NCBI GenBank assembly: GCA_013334245.1
Contig: JAAXXZ010000006.1
Span: 1-59,054, forward strand
Length of the DNA: 59,054 nucleotides
Direction of reading: 5' to 3'
Origin: Candidatus Moraniibacteriota bacterium
GTDB lineage: Bacteria; Patescibacteriota; Minisyncoccia; Moranbacterales; UBA1568
Positions 4,732 to 42,366 of the stretch are shown piece by piece (position 1 is the stretch's first letter; each line of letters starts with the position of its first letter). A program made the translations under genes and the position numbers. The notes beneath the pieces were generated by a model. It made no database searches, was not told where the DNA came from, and was given only the letters and a program-made list of their open reading frames with translations.

Positions 4732-5175
4732 GGGATAGTCAGGCGAAGATTCAAAACCTTCGTATAGCTCTTTCCGTACTTTCTTGATTATTTGGGGTAA
4801 TTTTTATCTTGATTTTAAGAAAGCATACCACGAACAGACCTCTCTATCAATAAAAATGCACTACGCCCTTTCTTGAGTGCTCCTCAACTCACTCTGGCAT
4901 GGTCGAGGGGTTCGGAATAAGAAAAGTCATAAAAGTATGTATCTACCAAAAAATGGTTCCTCTAGGGTCATTTTTTGATGCCAAAAACTGATTCTTTGAT
5001 TTTTAAATCAGTTTCTAGGAGTTTTTGAAGCAGCAAAATAGCAGTCCTATATAGGTAGCGCCATTTTGCCGATTCACACTAAAGCCGTTCTGGTGTGATA
5101 AATAAAGCATTTTGAACTTGGAATCTTGATTTTTTAACCAAATTGGAGCATAATTGAGCCACAATCTGTCCTAAC

Positions 5176-5327
5176 CCTAGAGCTTCAAAACTCTAGGTAT
5201 GGCGTAATAAATCCTAGATGAATAAAAACGGCCTTATGGCTGGCGCTTATTCATCTAGGTCGATGTCTCGAAAGGGATATCGTGCGGCTTCGAAAGGAGC
5301 TGTAGCCATGTCGTAAGGCCCTTTTTG
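5176..5327 (+). promoter_or_regulatory. Structured leader with terminator-like 3' end upstream of the PD-(D/E)XK-like ORF
   Basis: Stems CCTAGAG(5176-5182)/CTCTAGG(5191-5197), CCTAGATGAATAA(5213-5225)/TTATTCATCTAGG(5247-5259), and loop GGCCTTAT(5230-5237) complementary to GTAAGGCC(5313-5320) followed by CTTTTTG. Confidence 0.5.
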
Positions 5328-8014: not shown

Positions 8015-9622
8015 ATGAAAAACGACATAAAATACCTCGTATATCTGCGGAAATCGACCGACTCGGAGGATCGTCAGATCCAGTCTATCGAGGACCAGAG
8101 AAAGGAGCTGCGGCGTATCGCCGATCAGCTTCATGTCGACATAGTCGGATATTACCAGGAGAACATGTCGGCGAAGCGTCCGGGACGTCCGGAATTCAAC
8201 CGAATGTTGTCCGACATCAGGAAAGGGAAGGCTACTGGTATTCTCTGTTGGAAACTGAACCGACTTGCGAGAAATCCGGTCGACGGAGGTGAAATCATGT
8301 GGCTCGTCCAGGAGGGAATCATACAATCGGTACAAACACCCGGACGGGAATACAAGACTGGGGACAACGTCATCATCATGAGCGTCGAATTGGGTATGGC
8401 GAGTCAGTATGTCCTCGACCTGAGTCGGGACGTAAAAAGAGGCATGCAGTCAAAAGCCGAGAAGGGGTGGCGTCCCGGAAGGGCACCGCTCGGATACCTG
8501 AACGACAAAGGAGGGGAGCAGGGGAACAAAATCATACATGTGGATGAGGAGAAATTTCCACTCGTCCGGAAACTGTGGGACCTCATGCTTTCCGGTGAAT
8601 ACTCGGTTCCCAAGCTGACAGATATCGCAAACGACGACTGGGGACTGAAACGGTCCACCTCCAAGGGTGATAAACGGCTTCATGAGAGCCATATCCACAA
8701 GTTGTTAACTAATCCCTTCTACTACGGTGAGTACACCTGGAACGGAGTTACCCATCAAGGGAAACACCAACCCATGATTTCACAAGACGAGTTCGACCGC
8801 GTGCAATCACTGCTCGGCCTCAAAGCGAAACCTCAGACCAGACACCGCTTCCTTCCATACCGGGGGATCCTTCGTTGCGGGGAATGCGGATGTTATATAA
8901 CAACCGAAAAAAAGACCAAACTAATCAAATCTGAGGGGAAACTTCGTTCCTATATCTATCACCATTGCACCCACAGGAAAGCTGATGCGAATTGCAGACA
9001 AATGCCTGTCAGTCATGAGGAAATAAACTCGCAAATACTTGAAATCTTGAAAAATATATCAATCCCGGAGAGTTTTCTCGCGTTCGCTTTGGACATCCTG
9101 CGACGTGACAATGAAATTCAGACGGAAAACAGGGCGACTATGGAAAAGAACCACCGGAAGACCCTGGCAAGCTGTAATCAGAGGATAGACAACCTGATCA
9201 AGGCATACATCTCACAGGAAAACCAGGATAGGGACCTCATCAGCGATCAGGAGTTCAAGGACCAGAAATCTTCTCTGATTAAGGAAAAGACCACCGTTCA
9301 GACAAGAATCGAGGGTCTCGAACGACAGGCGGAGGAGTGGTTCAACCTGACGGAACAGAGTTTCAGATTCGCGACCCACGCAAGACATGAGTTCGAAACG
9401 GGTGATTTCGAGACGAAAACGCGTATTCTGATGGCTCTCGGTCAGAACTTTGTCCTGAAGGACGGAAAAGTCACTATTCAATTGAAAAAACCATACCAGA
9501 TCATGGAAGAAGGGAGGAAACGGATACAAGCGGAAAACCCAGGGTTAGAACTAGACTCTTTAGCTTTAGATAAAACAAAAACAGCCTCTTTCGAGGCCGT
9601 TTCTGCTACTCTGAGCGGGTAA
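8015..9622 (+). CDS. Large serine recombinase
   Basis: YLRKSTDSEDRQIQSIEDQ catalytic N-terminus, recombinase domain, Cys zinc ribbon (RCGECGCYI...HHCTHRKADANC), coiled coil. Confidence 0.93.
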   Translation: MKNDIKYLVYLRKSTDSEDRQIQSIEDQRKELRRIADQLHVDIVGYYQENMSAKRPGRPEFNRMLSDIRKGKATGILCWKLNRLARNPVDGGEIMWLVQEGIIQSVQTPGREYKTGDNVIIMSVELGMASQYVLDLSRDVKRGMQSKAEKGWRPGRAPLGYLNDKGGEQGNKIIHVDEEKFPLVRKLWDLMLSGEYSVPKLTDIANDDWGLKRSTSKGDKRLHESHIHKLLTNPFYYGEYTWNGVTHQGKHQPMISQDEFDRVQSLLGLKAKPQTRHRFLPYRGILRCGECGCYITTEKKTKLIKSEGKLRSYIYHHCTHRKADANCRQMPVSHEEINSQILEILKNISIPESFLAFALDILRRDNEIQTENRATMEKNHRKTLASCNQRIDNLIKAYISQENQDRDLISDQEFKDQKSSLIKEKTTVQTRIEGLERQAEEWFNLTEQSFRFATHARHEFETGDFETKTRILMALGQNFVLKDGKVTIQLKKPYQIMEEGRKRIQAENPGLELDSLALDKTKTASFEAVSATLSG

Positions 9623-9685
9623 CGGGAGTCGAACCCGTATTTCGTCCTTGGCAAGGACGCGTAATAGCCGCTATACGATACCCGC
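9614..9685 (-). tRNA. tRNA-Gly(GCC)
   Basis: GCGGGTATCGTATAGCGGCTATTACGCGTCCTTGCCAAGGACGAAATACGGGTTCGACTCCCGTTACCCGCT; U73 discriminator. Confidence 0.95.
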
Positions 9686-9800
9686 CTTCGCGCTCCGCGC
9701 TTCGGCGTGGCAGGCCCGCTTTTCACCGACGCTACGGCTTGGCACATCACTCGAGAGCGATATCGTGACAGGCACGCTTTTCACCGATCTTCACCGCCTG

Positions 9801-9873
9801 TGGGACTGGCTGGATTCGAACCAGCGACCAAGCGGTTATGAGCCGCCTGCTCTAACCGCTGAGCTACAGTCCC
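9801..9873 (-). tRNA. tRNA-Ile2(CAT, lysidine type) or tRNA-Met(CAT)
   Basis: GGGACTGTAGCTCAGCGGTTAGAGCAGGCGGCTCATAACCGCTTGGTCGCTGGTTCGAATCCAGCCAGTCCCA; body resembles bacterial tRNA-Ile2 more than elongator Met. Confidence 0.85.
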
Positions 9874-9926
9874 GGCCGGAACATGGCTATAAATGGTATT
9901 ATACACCACTTATACACATTTTCCTG

Positions 9927-9998
9927 TGCCTGGGGACAGAATCGAACTGTCGACACGAGGATTTTCAGTCCTCTGCTCTACCACTGAGCTACCCAGGC
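9927..9998 (-). tRNA. tRNA-Phe(GAA)
   Basis: GCCTGGGTAGCTCAGTGGTAGAGCAGAGGACTGAAAATCCTCGTGTCGACAGTTCGATTCTGTCCCCAGGCA. Confidence 0.95.
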
Positions 9999-10060
9999 GA
10001 AACACAAATATGAGTGTACAAGACTTTTCCTGACCCGTAAATACCCCGGCCGATTGTCTG

Positions 10061-10134
10061 TGGGCAATGGAGGACTTGAACCTCCGACCCCCTCGGTGTA
10101 AACGAGGTGCTCTAACCAACTGAGCTAATTGCCC
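10061..10134 (-). tRNA. tRNA-Val(TAC)
   Basis: GGGCAATTAGCTCAGTTGGTTAGAGCACCTCGTTTACACCGAGGGGGTCGGAGGTTCAAGTCCTCCATTGCCCA. Confidence 0.95.
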
Positions 10135-10171
10135 ATCAAAACTGGACTCGCCCCGCATCCGCGGGGCGCCC

Positions 10172-10245
10172 GGCGAATGCCTGGGCGAACCCCCGACCCC
10201 CTCGGTGTAAACGAGGTGCTCTAACCCGCTTGAGCTAAGCGTGCC
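10172..10245 (-). pseudogene. Degenerate tandem copy of tRNA-Val(TAC)
   Basis: Shares GTTAGAGCACCTCGTTTACACCGAGGGGGTCGG exactly with the functional copy, but the T-arm and 3' acceptor do not pair. Confidence 0.7.
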
Positions 10246-10296
10246 TTGATTTCCACACCTCTCAAGTATAGGGCACGGAATCCAAATGGCAAGCAA

Positions 10297-10320
10297 AAGG
10301 AACAGGCCGTCCTGTTCCTT
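10297..10320. terminator. Hairpin AAGGAACAGG-CCGT-CCTGTTCCTT
   Basis: 10-bp perfect stem between tRNA-Leu and the tRNA-Val copy. Confidence 0.55.
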
Positions 10321-10330
10321 CGTTCCGTTG

Positions 10331-10414
10331 TGCCCAAGAGAGGACTCGAACCTCCAATCCCTTGCGGGAACTAGCACCTCAAGCTAGCGCGTATACCAAT
10401 TCCGCCACCTGGGC
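10331..10414 (-). tRNA. tRNA-Leu(GAG)
   Basis: Class II tRNA: GCCCAGGTGGCGGAATTGGTATACGCGCTAGCTTGAGGTGCTAGTTCCCGCAAGGGATTGGAGGTTCGAGTCCTCTCTTGGGCA. Confidence 0.95.
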
Positions 10415-37176: not shown

Positions 37177-37431
37177 TTAGAAACTGGAGTAGGTTGAAGG
37201 GAACGAGGAGAACGAACTTGAACTCTTCAGCAAGGCGGTCCAATCGATGCGGAAGAACGTTATGGCGTTCGTGGCGAGGAAGAACAGGAACACGGTCGCG
37301 AAAACGAACACGGTCGCGAACGCGGCCCCTTTGGACAGCGAATAGCGAAGGATGTGGTAACAGACGTACATGCCTACCGTCGTTAATCCGAGAAAGAGTA
37401 TGAGATACAGGAGATTGATGATGCCGATCAT
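37177..37431 (-). CDS. Small two-TM membrane protein
   Basis: 84 aa, hydrophobic; overlaps the ruvB stop (ATGA). Confidence 0.55.
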
Positions 37432-38441
37432 AGGAGTTTTGTTTGTTGATCTTCGGGAACAGGGAGTCCGACATGGAGGAAGCCGTCCGGCGTCACGACG
37501 CGCCCCCGCGGGGTGCGGACCAGAAAACCGAGCTGTATGAGATAGGGTTCGTAGACGTCTTCTATGGTTTCCGTTTCTTCGCCGGTGACTGCCGCGATCG
37601 CCTGGATGCCGGCGGGGCCGCCTTTGAATTTTTTCGCGATGGCGGTGATGATGTTCCGATCCGTCGGCTCGAGCCCGATCTCGTCGACCTCGAAGAGCGA
37701 GAGCGCCTCGCGAGCGACGTCTCTGGATACGTTGTCCCGGCCATGGATCTCGGCGAAATCGCGAACCCGTTTGAGAAGGCGGTTCGCTACCCGTGGAGTC
37801 TGACGGCTTGCCGCGGCGATGGCGTCCGCGCCGCCATCGTCGATCGGAACGCCGAGAATCCGCGCGGAGCGTGTGATTATTTTCCGCATCTCGTCATGCT
37901 CATAGAACTCAAGCCGGTTTGTCGAGCCGAAACGGTTCCGAAGCGGATTCGATATGGACCCGAGTCGGGTCGTCGCCCCGACGAGGGTGAATCTCGGGAG
38001 ATCGAGTTGGATCGTCCGCGCCGACGGACCCTTCCCGATGATGATGTCCAGCTTGTAATCCTCCATGGCCGGATACAGGACCTCTTCGATGGTCTTGTTC
38101 AGTCGATGGATCTCGTCAATAAAGAGAACGTCACCTTCTTCCAGGTTCGTCAATATTGATCCCAGGTCCCCGACCCGTTCGATGGCCGGCCCCGAAGTGA
38201 TGCGGATATTGACGCCCATCTCTTTGGCGATGATGTTCGCGAGCGTGGTTTTTCCGAGTCCGGCCGGCCCGTACAACAGGACGTGGTCGACGCTTTCCTT
38301 GCGTCTCTTCGCGGCCTCGATGAATATCCCGAGGTTTCTTTTTATCTTTTCCTGTCCCACATACTCACCGAAAGAGCCCGGCCGCAGGGTGGTTTCGAGC
38401 ACGACGTCATCCGACTCGATCTTTTCGGGAGCGGTAAGCAT
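37428..38441 (-). CDS. ruvB: Holliday junction helicase RuvB
   Basis: [70 protein letters not shown]. Confidence 0.97.
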
Positions 38442-38506
38442 GTGGTTCGGTCTTTGATGGCTTGCCGGAGCGGCTCTACGGTGATTCTGACTAATTCTAG
38501 CACTTC

Positions 38507-38535
38507 TTGACAGGAATACAAACCTATGCTAGGAT
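38507..38535 (+). promoter_or_regulatory. Sigma70-like promoter TTGACA-N17-TAGGAT for the candidate ncRNA
   Basis: TTGACA 38507-38512, 17-nt spacer, TAGGAT 38530-38535. Confidence 0.7.
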
Positions 38536-38541
38536 GGAAGG

Positions 38542-38822
38542 TCCCGCTGAAAAAACGGACGACATTTTGAGGGCACATTCACCTGCAGGCAAATTGGGGA
38601 TTTCTATCTTTTATCCTCAAGACAGGGGGCTTACCCTCGCGCTTACCGTTTCTCACGGATTCCGTCGGAAACGGCAAGCGCGAGATGTCCAGACATGGGT
38701 TGGGTGGTTTCGGCTGCGCTCCTCCTCGACACTGTCCCTTCCCGAGATGTCCTTGACGTCTCGGATTGCCTGCAGCTGAATGATCCTCCAAGCGGAGACT
38801 CCCGTCATCGGAGTCTTTTCTT
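38542..38822 (+). ncRNA. Orphan structured ncRNA gene candidate (~280 nt)
   Basis: P1 CTGCAGGCAA 38583-38592/TTGCCTGCAG 38766-38775; P2 38594-38601/38613-38620; P3 CTCGCGCTTACCGTTT 38636-38651/AAACGGCAAGCGCGAG 38669-38684; P5 CCGAGATGTC 38742-38751/GACGTCTCGG 38755-38764; own promoter and terminator. Confidence 0.65.
38796..38820 (+). terminator. Intrinsic terminator of the ncRNA candidate
   Basis: AGACTCC-CGTCATC-GGAGTCT followed by TTTC/TT. Confidence 0.75.
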
Positions 38823-38869
38823 ATATCCGAAAGCGGAGTATCATGGAGCCTCATCCAAAGGAAAAGACC

Positions 38870-39313
38870 ATGAGTTACAGCGAGAAAAACCGTGCGGTCC
38901 GTGCTTCAAGCAATGCGTCACAAGGAGTCGTGGTCCGTCGGTCGTCCGCCGGGCTGGGACTGTTCGCCGCGAAGGATTTCGCCAAAGGGGAGACGGTTAT
39001 CGAGTACGTGGGGAATAGGATAGCGGCTTCGGAAGCTGAGAGTCGGCCGAACCGATACCTTTTCCGGGTGAGCACGAAGCAAGATATCGACGGCAGCCCC
39101 CGGTGGAATACCGCAAGATACGCGAACCATTCCTGCAAACCGAATTGCGAAGCTGAGAACCGGGGGGGAAGGATATACCTGGTGACGCGTCGAAAGGTGA
39201 GCGCCGGCGAGGAAATATGTTATGATTACGGGCGCGAATACGTCGACGAGTTCATTCGCCCTTCGGGTTGCCGTTGTAGGAAATGCATCGACATGAAAAA
39301 AGACCCCGTCTGA
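38870..39313 (+). CDS. SET-domain protein (putative lysine methyltransferase) with post-SET cysteines
   Basis: SSAGLGLFAAKDFAKGETVIEYVG, ARYANHSCKPNCEAEN, GEEICYDYG, CRCRKC; start at MSYSEKN or the upstream ATG at 38843. Confidence 0.85.
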   Translation: MSYSEKNRAVRASSNASQGVVVRRSSAGLGLFAAKDFAKGETVIEYVGNRIAASEAESRPNRYLFRVSTKQDIDGSPRWNTARYANHSCKPNCEAENRGGRIYLVTRRKVSAGEEICYDYGREYVDEFIRPSGCRCRKCIDMKKDPV

Positions 39314-39328
39314 CGACGGGGTCTTTTC
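39295..39328. terminator. Bidirectional terminator AAAAAAGACCCCGTC-TGAC-GACGGGGTCTTTT
   Basis: 9-bp perfect GC stem with A/T arms; encodes the last codons of the SET protein. Confidence 0.85.
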
Positions 39329-39339
39329 GTTCCCTCGTT

Positions 39340-42300
39340 CTATTCGTCGGTGACGCGTCGCACCTCGTCGATCGTCGTACGGCCTTCAAAAACAGCCAAG
39401 AGACCGTCCGCGGAGAGCGGGAGCATCCCGTTCTTCAGCGCCGCATCCTCTATCTCCGATGTCAACGCGTTTTCGGAGATGAGTTTCTCGATGTCCCTGT
39501 CTTTTTCCAGGACTTCCGAGAGTACGATCTGTCCCGAATAACCGACCCCGTTACATTCCGGGCATCCGACGGCGCGATAGACCATATCGGTACGAAGCGT
39601 ATCGGGATGCAACTTCTCCGGAATCATCGCGCTGATGCGACCGATCATTTCCGCCTCGTCGGCGGTAGGCCGGTCTTCCTTCCTGCAGTGCGGGCACAGT
39701 TTCCGCACGAGCCTTTGCGAAATGAGGCAGTTTGCGGCGTTCGCGAGGTCGTCGGTCGATATGCCCATCCCGAGAATGCGGGCGATCGCACCGGCCGCGC
39801 TGTTCGCATGGACCGTCGAAAGCACGAGGTGTCCGGTAACGGCTGCCTGCACGGCTATTTTCGCCGTCTCTTCGTCCCGGATCTCCCCGAGCATGAGGAT
39901 GTCCGGGTTTTGTCGGAGCAGTACCGAAAGCGCTTCCGGGAACGAGTATCCCTCTTCCGCATTCACCTGCGTCTGCAGGATTCCGGGAAGCTGGTATTCG
40001 ATCGGATCCTCGACCGTGATGATCTTCACTTCGGGCGTGTTGAGTTTCGCGAGCATGCTATACAGAGTGGTCGTTTTCCCGGATCCGGTCGGTCCGACGT
40101 TCACGATGATCCCGTTCGGCCGTTTGATGGCCGCCTCGATGCGCTCAAGGTTTTCCTTCCGGAAGGCGAGTGCGTCGAGAGAAAGTTCGACTTCCGATCC
40201 GCCGAGGACGCGCATGACGGCCGTTTCGCCGTATCCGCCAAGAATGATCGAGAGGCGGACATCCGTGCGTCCCGCTTTGACGGTATCGAACGGTGTAAGG
40301 ACGGAAAGTGAGAAGCGACCGTCGACGACGCCGGAGCGTTCACCCGTCTTCAGGCCGCTCCACAACTTGATCTCGCCGAGTACGGAAGGATAGGTATTTT
40401 TCGGAAATGACAGGACGGTCTGCAGTATGCCGTCTATCCGGAACCTGACGAGGATGGTATCGTCCGTCGGTTCGAAGTGGACATCCCCGGCGTGCAGCAG
40501 AAGGGCGGCGGCGAAGATCGCGCGGAGAAGGGCGTTCTCGTCGAGTGTGGCCGCATAGGTACGGAAATCCTCGAACGAAGAAAGGCGCTCTTTCGCATCC
40601 GCAAGGGCTGACGCCGAAATGACCGACGCGCGCGAAAGCAGGCTCGGCATAAGGTCCTCGTAAATCTCCTGGAGCGTATCCCGCTGCCCGGTAGCCCGCC
40701 ACACTTCTTCGAGCGTCGTTATTCCGCGAAGGGCCTTGATCATGCCGTCCTGGATCATCGTTACCATGCCGTCCTCGACCGCCGCCCGTGTGATTTCACG
40801 CTCGGTTCCAAGATTCAAAATGAGCTCCTCGATCGACTTCGTTATCGTGAACGCCTCGAAGATGCCGATCCGTCCGCGGTATCCCGTGAGTCCGCACTTC
40901 TGACAGCCGACCGATTTCCACAATTTCTTCGTTTCGTGCGGAATGGAAATCTTCGCTTTGGGAGAGATGATGGAGAGAATCTGTTCGATGCCGTCGAGCG
41001 TCTCTTTCGCCGGATCATACGACTCCTTGCAGTCGTCGCAGAGAACGCGCACGAGGCGCTGTCCGATGATGATGTTCGTCGCCGAGGCGATGAGCGACGG
41101 CTTCACTCCGAGTTCGACGAAACGGCCTACGGCGCCCGGAGCGGTGTTTGCGTGGATGGTCGAGAATAGGAGGTGACCGGTGAGCGCCGCGTTCACGGCG
41201 ACCTCGGCGGTCTCTTCGTCGCGGATTTCGCCGACGAGGATGACGTCAGGGTCCTGTCGGACGATGGCTCGGAGCGCGGCGGCGAACGTATAGGAACGGT
41301 CCTTGGAGACCTCGGTCTGCACGATTCCGGGTAGTTGGTATTCCACCGGGTCCTCGACGGTGATGATCTTCACCTCCGACTTGTTGATGGAGTGCAACAG
41401 GCTATAGAGCGTGGTCGTTTTTCCGGATCCGGTCGGACCGGTGTTCAGGATCATGCCATGTGGGAGGTTGATCGCGTGTCGTACTTTTTCGAGGGTTTCC
41501 CCTTCGAGGCCGAGCGTCGGCATATCGAGCAGGACGCTTTCCGCGTTCAGGATCCGGAGATTGATGCTTTCCCCGTGATTGCCCGGGATGACGCTTGCTC
41601 GGAGATCCGTCTTCTTGCCGTCGACGGTCATTTCGAAGTGCCCGTCTTGGGAACGGTCGCGGATGTTTATCTTCATCTTCGAGAGCATCTTGACCCGCGA
41701 GAGCGTGAGCCGATAGATGTCCTTGGGGATGTTGCCGACGTCCTGAAGGACGCCGTCGATCCGATACCGGAGTCGGACGGAGTCAGCCTCGGGTTCGATA
41801 TGGATGTCACTTGCGCGGAGCTTGTTCGCGCCGGCCAGAATGATTTCGACCGTCTGTGAGATCGAAACCGTCGTGGCGTTTTTCAGGCTGAGCAGCTCGT
41901 CGAAATTTTCCTCGAATTTTCGAAGATCCTCTCCCGAAAGAGAAATCCGCAGCAGGTCGAGACTTCGCAGGATCGGCGCGGACTTGTACGTCCCCCAGAC
42001 CTTTTCGAGCGATTGAGTGGAAACGACGAACGGTTCGATGGACCATCGGTTCGCTTTGGCGAACTCGGTAACGAACGCCTCGGCCTCGGCATTTTCGGGG
42101 TTCGCGAAAGCCACCCGGATGGTATCGCCCGTCTTGTCGAACGCGGCGATTCCGAGTCTTCGGGCGTCTTCTTCGGCGATGAGGGTCACGTCCTCGGAAT
42201 TGGCGGGAAAGATATGAAGATCGAGATAGGGAAGGCCGAGCGCCGACGCTCGTCGCGCCGCCTCCTGCTCCATCGATTCTCCCTGGAGCTCCTGGAGCAG

Positions 42301-42366
42301 CTTCGCGGTCTTGGCCGCCTTACTGTCCTTCCAGCCCTGCCCGGACTTCTGGATGACGTGGACCAT
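39340..42366 (-). CDS. Tandem (two-ATPase-domain) PilB/GspE-like type IV pilus assembly ATPase
   Basis: MshEN-like N-terminus; two complete GspE modules, each with GPTGSGKTTTLYS, ITVEDPxEYQLPGI, ILxGEIRDEETA, HANxAxGA and zinc Cys pairs (CDDC/CQKC and CPHC/CPEC). Confidence 0.9.
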   Translation of the reverse strand: MVHVIQKSGQGWKDSKAAKTAKLLQELQGESMEQEAARRASALGLPYLDLHIFPANSEDVTLIAEEDARRLGIAAFDKTGDTIRVAFANPENAEAEAFVTEFAKANRWSIEPFVVSTQSLEKVWGTYKSAPILRSLDLLRISLSGEDLRKFEENFDELLSLKNATTVSISQTVEIILAGANKLRASDIHIEPEADSVRLRYRIDGVLQDVGNIPKDIYRLTLSRVKMLSKMKINIRDRSQDGHFEMTVDGKKTDLRASVIPGNHGESINLRILNAESVLLDMPTLGLEGETLEKVRHAINLPHGMILNTGPTGSGKTTTLYSLLHSINKSEVKIITVEDPVEYQLPGIVQTEVSKDRSYTFAAALRAIVRQDPDVILVGEIRDEETAEVAVNAALTGHLLFSTIHANTAPGAVGRFVELGVKPSLIASATNIIIGQRLVRVLCDDCKESYDPAKETLDGIEQILSIISPKAKISIPHETKKLWKSVGCQKCGLTGYRGRIGIFEAFTITKSIEELILNLGTEREITRAAVEDGMVTMIQDGMIKALRGITTLEEVWRATGQRDTLQEIYEDLMPSLLSRASVISASALADAKERLSSFEDFRTYAATLDENALLRAIFAAALLLHAGDVHFEPTDDTILVRFRIDGILQTVLSFPKNTYPSVLGEIKLWSGLKTGERSGVVDGRFSLSVLTPFDTVKAGRTDVRLSIILGGYGETAVMRVLGGSEVELSLDALAFRKENLERIEAAIKRPNGIIVNVGPTGSGKTTTLYSMLAKLNTPEVKIITVEDPIEYQLPGILQTQVNAEEGYSFPEALSVLLRQNPDILMLGEIRDEETAKIAVQAAVTGHLVLSTVHANSAAGAIARILGMGISTDDLANAANCLISQRLVRKLCPHCRKEDRPTADEAEMIGRISAMIPEKLHPDTLRTDMVYRAVGCPECNGVGYSGQIVLSEVLEKDRDIEKLISENALTSEIEDAALKNGMLPLSADGLLAVFEGRTTIDEVRRVTDE

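Follow-up and report, generated by a model that had tools for sequence, protein, structure and literature searches.

Organization of the locus and its promoter

What is encoded between ruvB and a small SET-domain gene in this Candidatus Moraniibacteriota genome, where two genes diverge and the DNA between them is rich in inverted repeats? A first-pass annotation of the window (the whole 59,054-nt stretch of contig JAAXXZ010000006.1 that was analysed) had placed there a free-standing structured ncRNA gene of no identified class, and this proposal is supported by the Rfam negatives, the covariation and the conserved promoter described below. As read from the sequence, the element occupies positions 38507-38822 on the + strand and comprises a promoter, a folded domain of ~193 nt and an intrinsic terminator (Table 1).

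The annotated TTGACA-N17-TAGGAT promoter is indeed present, and it is the sole sigma70-type promoter-like match on either strand within positions 38300-39400. Among order-level copies the perfect TTGACA box is kept together with its 17-bp spacer in 36/36, and five bases of the extended -10 element (T, G, T, A and the last T) are likewise unchanged in 36/36. At the class level, 59% of the promoters score at least 11/12 as compared to 0.1% of shuffles. Transcription is predicted to start near a conserved (G)TC at 38541-38543; counted from the -35 box, position +35 is T in 36/36 order-level copies and position +36 is C in 32/36. The end of the -10 box is 4-6 nt from the closing stem P1 in L172, L175 and L163, and therefore the transcript in these members would be essentially the folded domain alone. 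At L087 and L091 the RNA is preceded by a pair of TTGACA/TATAAT-type promoters in tandem, the second of which lies near P1. A terminator-like hairpin lies between the promoter and the RNA in some members (31% of leaders vs 11% of shuffles); a short hairpin and T-run between a strong promoter and P1 can be seen, for example, at the class loci L079, L082, L097, L100 and L164. It may represent an attenuator or some 5′ element, and it counts against a plain constitutive gene, which needs none.

At the 3′ end, the terminator that had been annotated as perfect is present, matched at 38794-38818, but it is not significant on its own, since 1.0 terminator matches are expected by chance within 38300-39400. 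Most relatives have either a terminator of their own or a P1 stem that ends in a U-run, and the latter arrangement, found in several class members, indicates that P1 itself can act as a terminator.

ruvB and the RNA are transcribed divergently at almost every locus of the class, as they are in a second class, and usually lie within 40-360 nt of each other; this fixed neighbourhood could mean a local role. In the distant members L177, L178 and L180 the RNA is not beside ruvB. Within the order, a probable extended -10 element of ruvB (TGnTAnAAT on the - strand) is conserved at positions -13 to -5 (A in 32/36, T in 33/36, A in 32/36, C in 32/36, and so on). Conservation of its position against the RNA -35 box stops at the order and does not extend to other members of the class; therefore overlapping promoters do not explain the ruvB synteny in general, and we rejected them as its general cause. 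On the opposite side, it is only in the genus of the window and some of its nearest relatives that the SET-domain gene separates the RNA from the PilB gene. The 1008-aa product of the PilB gene contains two T2SSE (PilB/GspE) ATPase regions, both of them complete and arranged one after the other in a single polypeptide. A 90-aa open reading frame spanning 38507-38779 was rejected as protein-coding: its first codon falls within the -35 box, and in relatives the frame is broken by indels and interrupted by inserted hairpins with the pairing kept.

Table 1. Coordinates of the RNA element, its parts and its neighbours in the window.
Feature	Position	Strand	Remarks
ruvB	37428-38441	-	Pfam RuvB_N/RuvB_C; divergent neighbour kept across class and second class
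Probable extended -10 (TGCTAGAAT) of divergent ruvB promoter	38494-38502	-	abuts RNA -35 box
-35 box TTGACA of RNA promoter	38507-38512	+	perfect; invariant in 36/36 order-level homologues
Extended -10 (TG-C-TAGGAT)	38527-38535	+	TG 38527-38528, TAGGAT 38530-38535; 17-bp spacer
5′ leader	38541-38575	+	length and sequence vary among relatives
P1 closing stem, 5′ strand	38576-38592	+	pairs with 38766-38782; one C.C mismatch
P2 hairpin	38594-38620	+	loop UUCUAUCUUUU conserved in order; hairpin optional in class
P3, 5′ strand	38625-38630	+	pairs with 38734-38739; 6/6 pairs with double changes
Long insertion hairpin	38636-38684	+	lineage-specific; confined to close relatives
Conserved internal loop, 5′ strand	38689-38696	+	CCAGACAU; family YYAGNNN
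P4 hairpin	38697-38725	+	UNCG/GNRA-type tetraloop 38709-38712; most conserved core
Conserved internal loop, 3′ strand	38726-38733	+	UCGACACU; family UCGRNA
P3, 3′ strand	38734-38739	+	covariation test
P5 hairpin	38742-38764	+	9/9 pairs with double changes; optional outside class
P1 closing stem, 3′ strand	38766-38782	+	minimum-energy fold; covariation
Intrinsic terminator GGAGACTCC...GGAGTCTTTTCTT	about 38794-38822	+	sole terminator match in 38300-39400
SET-domain gene, small, stand-alone	38870-39313	+	lies between RNA and PilB gene
PilB/GspE-type ATPase gene	39340-42366	-	Pfam T2SSE; convergent neighbour in most of class

Secondary structure and covariation

The predicted transcript would be about 280 nt long here and about 110-200 nt in many relatives. 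When 38541-38823 was folded alone it reached -127 kcal/mol (z = -7.1), and 0/200 dinucleotide shuffles were as stable. The perfect 10-bp stem 38583-38592/38766-38775 that the annotation had described turned out to be part of a longer P1: past a C.C mismatch, CATTCA/TGAATG extends it to 16 bp, and P1 reaches up to about 22 bp in other members. Similarly, the 8-bp hairpin (P2) and the 10-bp hairpin with a 3-nt loop (P5) both recur in the minimum-energy fold. The 16-position stem with one mismatch is also present, but it does not belong to the core of the family, being an insertion of close relatives that most members lack. That core consists of P3, an asymmetric internal loop and P4, and can be summarized as YYAGNNN-GG...UGGY-UNCG-RCUGG...CC-UCGRNA, with conserved tandem wobble pairs within P4 and an invariant GG/CC at its base.

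To evaluate this fold by comparison, we aligned 37 order-level copies with MAFFT without any structure. Double-sided changes with pairing kept were found in 34/47 pairs, against a shuffled mean of 20, and 0/500 shuffles reached this number. The corresponding class-level values were 49/55 pairs and 0/500 shuffles for 65 sequences, in an alignment that had been fitted to an order-level covariance model (R1, below) and may thus favour the proposed structure; its covariation score was 0.622 vs 0.222, and sliding the partners destroyed the signal. In this alignment P1 showed double-sided changes at 19/20 pairs and was 94% paired. Worry over the fitted alignment is lessened by two analyses. Mutual information, calculated without a structure model, recovered the helices together with five P1 pairs and one P4 pair absent from R1. 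Furthermore, an R-scape-style tree-aware null returned 20 significant pairs of 13,041 tested, and 20/20 of them fall within the structure and cover all five helices. A lack of covariation among homologues, which the first pass had named as a refuter, is thus not observed. G-U pairs outnumber A-C mismatches on the + strand (533 vs 109), and therefore the + strand is the functional RNA. Together, these comparisons settle the fold.

The periphery of the structure is more variable. The hairpins P2 and P5, which sit in the P1/P3 junction, are not always kept: P2 is absent from some class members, and the second class appears to have neither. In L028 and L030 a different short segment (AGCUC.U) replaces P2, without the conserved CUAUCUUUU loop, and the remaining RNA is intact. 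The P4 tetraloop is of the UNCG type, or of the GNRA type in L036 and L071. At the P4 alignment columns 175/204, G.U and A.C alternate (34 and 16 of 65 sequences), an exchange that corresponds to an isosteric non-Watson-Crick pair and suggests a defined three-dimensional motif in P4. Two further elements were considered and rejected: a pseudoknot seen by eye between the P5 loop and an AUGGG segment has no support from mutual information or the tree-aware test, and a K-turn at the P3/P4 internal loop would need GA on both strands, where it is not kept. At L032:1844-2080 a near-perfect hairpin of ~70 nt (CCCCACACCAATTCTTAAT...) is inserted exactly in the P4 tetraloop, and resembles a small mobile element that may be tolerated in an exposed loop.

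Distribution of the family

A DNA search located the element in 37/57 relatives, and in the alignment of these 37 copies two cores are well conserved and the promoter is nearly invariant. To broaden the search we used two covariance models, R1 built from the order-level copies and R2 from 65 class-wide sequences, whose E-values are approximate owing to a shortened calibration. The narrow model R1 detected a single locus in each of 130/335 class genomes. With R2 and sensitive filters, 28/36 class genomes at least 95% complete gave one locus each, second matches being the same locus on the opposite strand; the other 8/36 gave no match, reflecting either loss or divergence. We read the class of these near-complete genomes as Paceibacteria. 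R2 also matched 12/13 genomes of the second class, as well as a small number of others in the phylum. Within the 59-kb window it has a single match, at a rough E = 1e-24, with none other up to E = 10. In addition, a search with the core pattern over 84,980 species returned 24 loci, all of which score with R2, and 24/24 belong to Patescibacteria (Parcubacteria, Yanofskybacteria, Portnoybacteria and the like) or to unnamed bacterial bins. Presence in viruses was rejected, as 11 pattern hits in viral contigs are attributable to chance.

Collectively, the genomic comparisons establish, at the level of sequence, a family with a defined fold, a functional + strand, a sigma70-type promoter and one copy per genome next to ruvB, and its distribution indicates vertical inheritance with synteny.

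Comparison with known RNA families

None of the 4227 models of Rfam 15 matched the element at its gathering score. Permissive searches likewise gave nothing credible at E<10 in the window element or at E<3 in 20 distant relatives, so that the Rfam check proposed by the first-pass annotation, applied to the window and these relatives, brought up no known class. The only models that touch the element in the permissive search are animal microRNA hairpins, which align to the long inverted repeat on both strands with 30 of the 82 bits required; being far under their cut-offs, these hits are due to chance. The RNA is also nowhere described in the open-access journal literature that we searched. Absent, as it seems, both from Rfam and from this part of the literature, it is overlooked by standard annotation.

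The annotation had seen no signature of tmRNA, RNase P RNA or SRP RNA, and this reading holds. RNase P RNA and tmRNA, which are likewise structured housekeeping RNAs, have no motifs in common with the element and are excluded by the genome's own copies at G000:C31:85204-85626 (112 bits) and G000:C21:15873-16274 (116 bits), respectively. The element resembles bacterial SRP RNA (RF00169) in being housekeeping-like and single-copy, with paired ends and a hairpin arm. However, SRP RNA is excluded as its identity, as the element has no RF00169 match and no helix-8 motif, and the host lineage is also without the Ffh M-domain. Indeed, RF00169 found no SRP RNA in the genome itself, in 38 relatives or in 335/335 class genomes (controls, 11/14 positive), and the Ffh M-domain was found in 0/19 relatives (controls, 14/14). 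These absences are consistent with the published loss of SRP in Parcubacteria (Nelson and Stegen 2015, PMC4508563) and wider in range.

The first pass had also allowed for a 6S-like RNA. Like 6S RNA (RF00013), the element is free-standing and single-copy, with a strong sigma70 promoter, a long closing stem, a terminal arm and a length of 110-280 nt. As membership of the 6S family, however, this possibility is not supported: RF00013 has no match in the window, in the genome itself or in 20 relatives, and the large open central bubble that marks 6S RNA is not consistently present, its place being filled by P2/P5 or reduced to a 5′ strand of 0-1 nt in L172 and L175, even though an internal loop is present between P1 and P3 in the second class. 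In contrast to 6S RNA, the element has a conserved tetraloop stem (P4) with an invariant internal loop, and is so far confined to Patescibacteria.

Proposed role and alternative explanations

On balance, the locus quite probably encodes an ncRNA that is structured, single-copy and constitutively transcribed, and that belongs to an undescribed family of the Patescibacteria (CPR). The promoter leads us to infer constitutive and abundant expression. That the RNA acts in trans, in a housekeeping capacity, is suggested by the single copy, the breadth of the family, and conservation that is concentrated in one internal loop and hairpin and not in a seed or an expression platform. Whether it would be a housekeeping ribonucleoprotein RNA particular to Patescibacteria, rather than a derived 6S, SRP, tmRNA or RNase P RNA, is to our mind an evenly balanced matter; such an RNA would go back to the ancestor of at least two classes, and would have been kept single-copy beside ruvB in a lineage without SRP.

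Much of bacterial diversity belongs to the Patescibacteria, whose very small genomes contain little that is dispensable. A single-copy RNA that is near-universal in such genomes and stands behind a very strong promoter is thus likely to matter to its hosts, and it seems that these poorly understood cells depend on a core RNA that has gone undescribed. The family provides several handles for pursuing it: the covariance model, the invariant core, which can serve as bait in pull-downs, and the unchanging location beside ruvB. It also makes testable the question of which core RNAs replace 6S and SRP in Patescibacteria.

A ribonucleoprotein role is, tentatively, the likeliest function. The long P1 stem would join both ends of the RNA and shield them, and may double as the terminator in some relatives, while P2, P5 and the long hairpin would be peripheral insertions. 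The functional site would then be the P3/internal loop/P4 core, which as an RNP scaffold could offer an invariant surface to one protein or RNP. The partner might be sought among the translation, export or transcription machinery retained by these reduced cells.

The main rival is a 6S-like decoy. 6S RNA is a widespread housekeeping RNA, and since none was found in this genome, the element might act as a functional analogue whose P1/bubble/P3-P4 rod would trap the housekeeping RNA polymerase by imitating an open promoter. Its similar size, strong sigma70 promoter and single copy would fit, as would the order of closing stem, junction and terminal arm, in which P2 and P5 sit at the places of the bubble hairpins, and the internal loop that the second class, without P2, leaves between P1 and P3. 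We nevertheless regard this explanation as unlikely. Besides the RF00013 negatives, the minimal members L172 and L175, with 0-1 nt between P1 and P3 on the 5′ strand, would have no open bubble there, and sequence conservation peaks in the P4 tetraloop stem and internal loop instead of around a bubble. The second rival starts from the neighbouring gene: transcription from the overlapping back-to-back promoters, or the RNA itself, would control ruvB. The divergent ruvB position is kept across the class and the second class, and within the order the conserved ruvB extended -10 abuts the RNA -35 box; yet the overlap is lost outside the order, the L177, L178 and L180 RNAs lie elsewhere, and the RNA core is conserved beyond the needs of regulation by transcription alone, which makes such a regulator decidedly unlikely.

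Other explanations carry still less weight. Near invariance of the P2 loop across the order might point to a base-pairing regulatory sRNA with this loop (UUNCUAUCUUUU) as its seed, but the loop and its hairpin are lost or replaced in many class members and in L028 and L030, with P1, P3 and P4 retained, and the bases of the conserved core lie in helices or in an internal loop; we hold this to be improbable. Replacement of SRP RNA, with the element as the RNA part of a different co-translational targeting particle, would fit the absence of SRP RNA and of the Ffh M-domain noted above (their controls being positive), the published SRP loss, and a new single-copy RNA in the same lineage. However, the link is a coincidence of distribution only, no Ffh is present to bind the RNA, and P4 is a UNCG/GNRA tetraloop stem without the symmetric and asymmetric loops of SRP RNA, so that this replacement, too, is quite improbable. 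Finally, several perfect inverted repeats beside the gene of a Holliday-junction helicase might suggest a structured DNA element, that is, a cruciform or recombination site near ruvB, and not an RNA. Against this, G-U exceeds A-C five to one on the + strand, U.G/G.U pairs are nearly invariant, the loops are of the UNCG type, and promoter and terminator stand in order; the DNA cruciform was rejected on the G-U bias, and a DNA element of any such kind is extremely improbable. The preferred reading thus remains a housekeeping RNA with a ribonucleoprotein role.

Other RNAs in the window

In its general character the element is comparable to raiA, OLE and LOOT RNA, orphan ncRNAs that are abundant, structured and conserved, whose function is unknown or partly known, and whose taxonomic range is narrow. 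Like these, it is a conserved structured RNA of narrow range, and it differs from them in that no Rfam model matches it. LOOT RNA itself (RF03000, 59 bits), an Rfam orphan whose function is unknown, sits elsewhere in the window, apart from the element, at 5168-5304 (+), and Rfam also identifies a cluster of five tRNAs at 9614-10414 (-).
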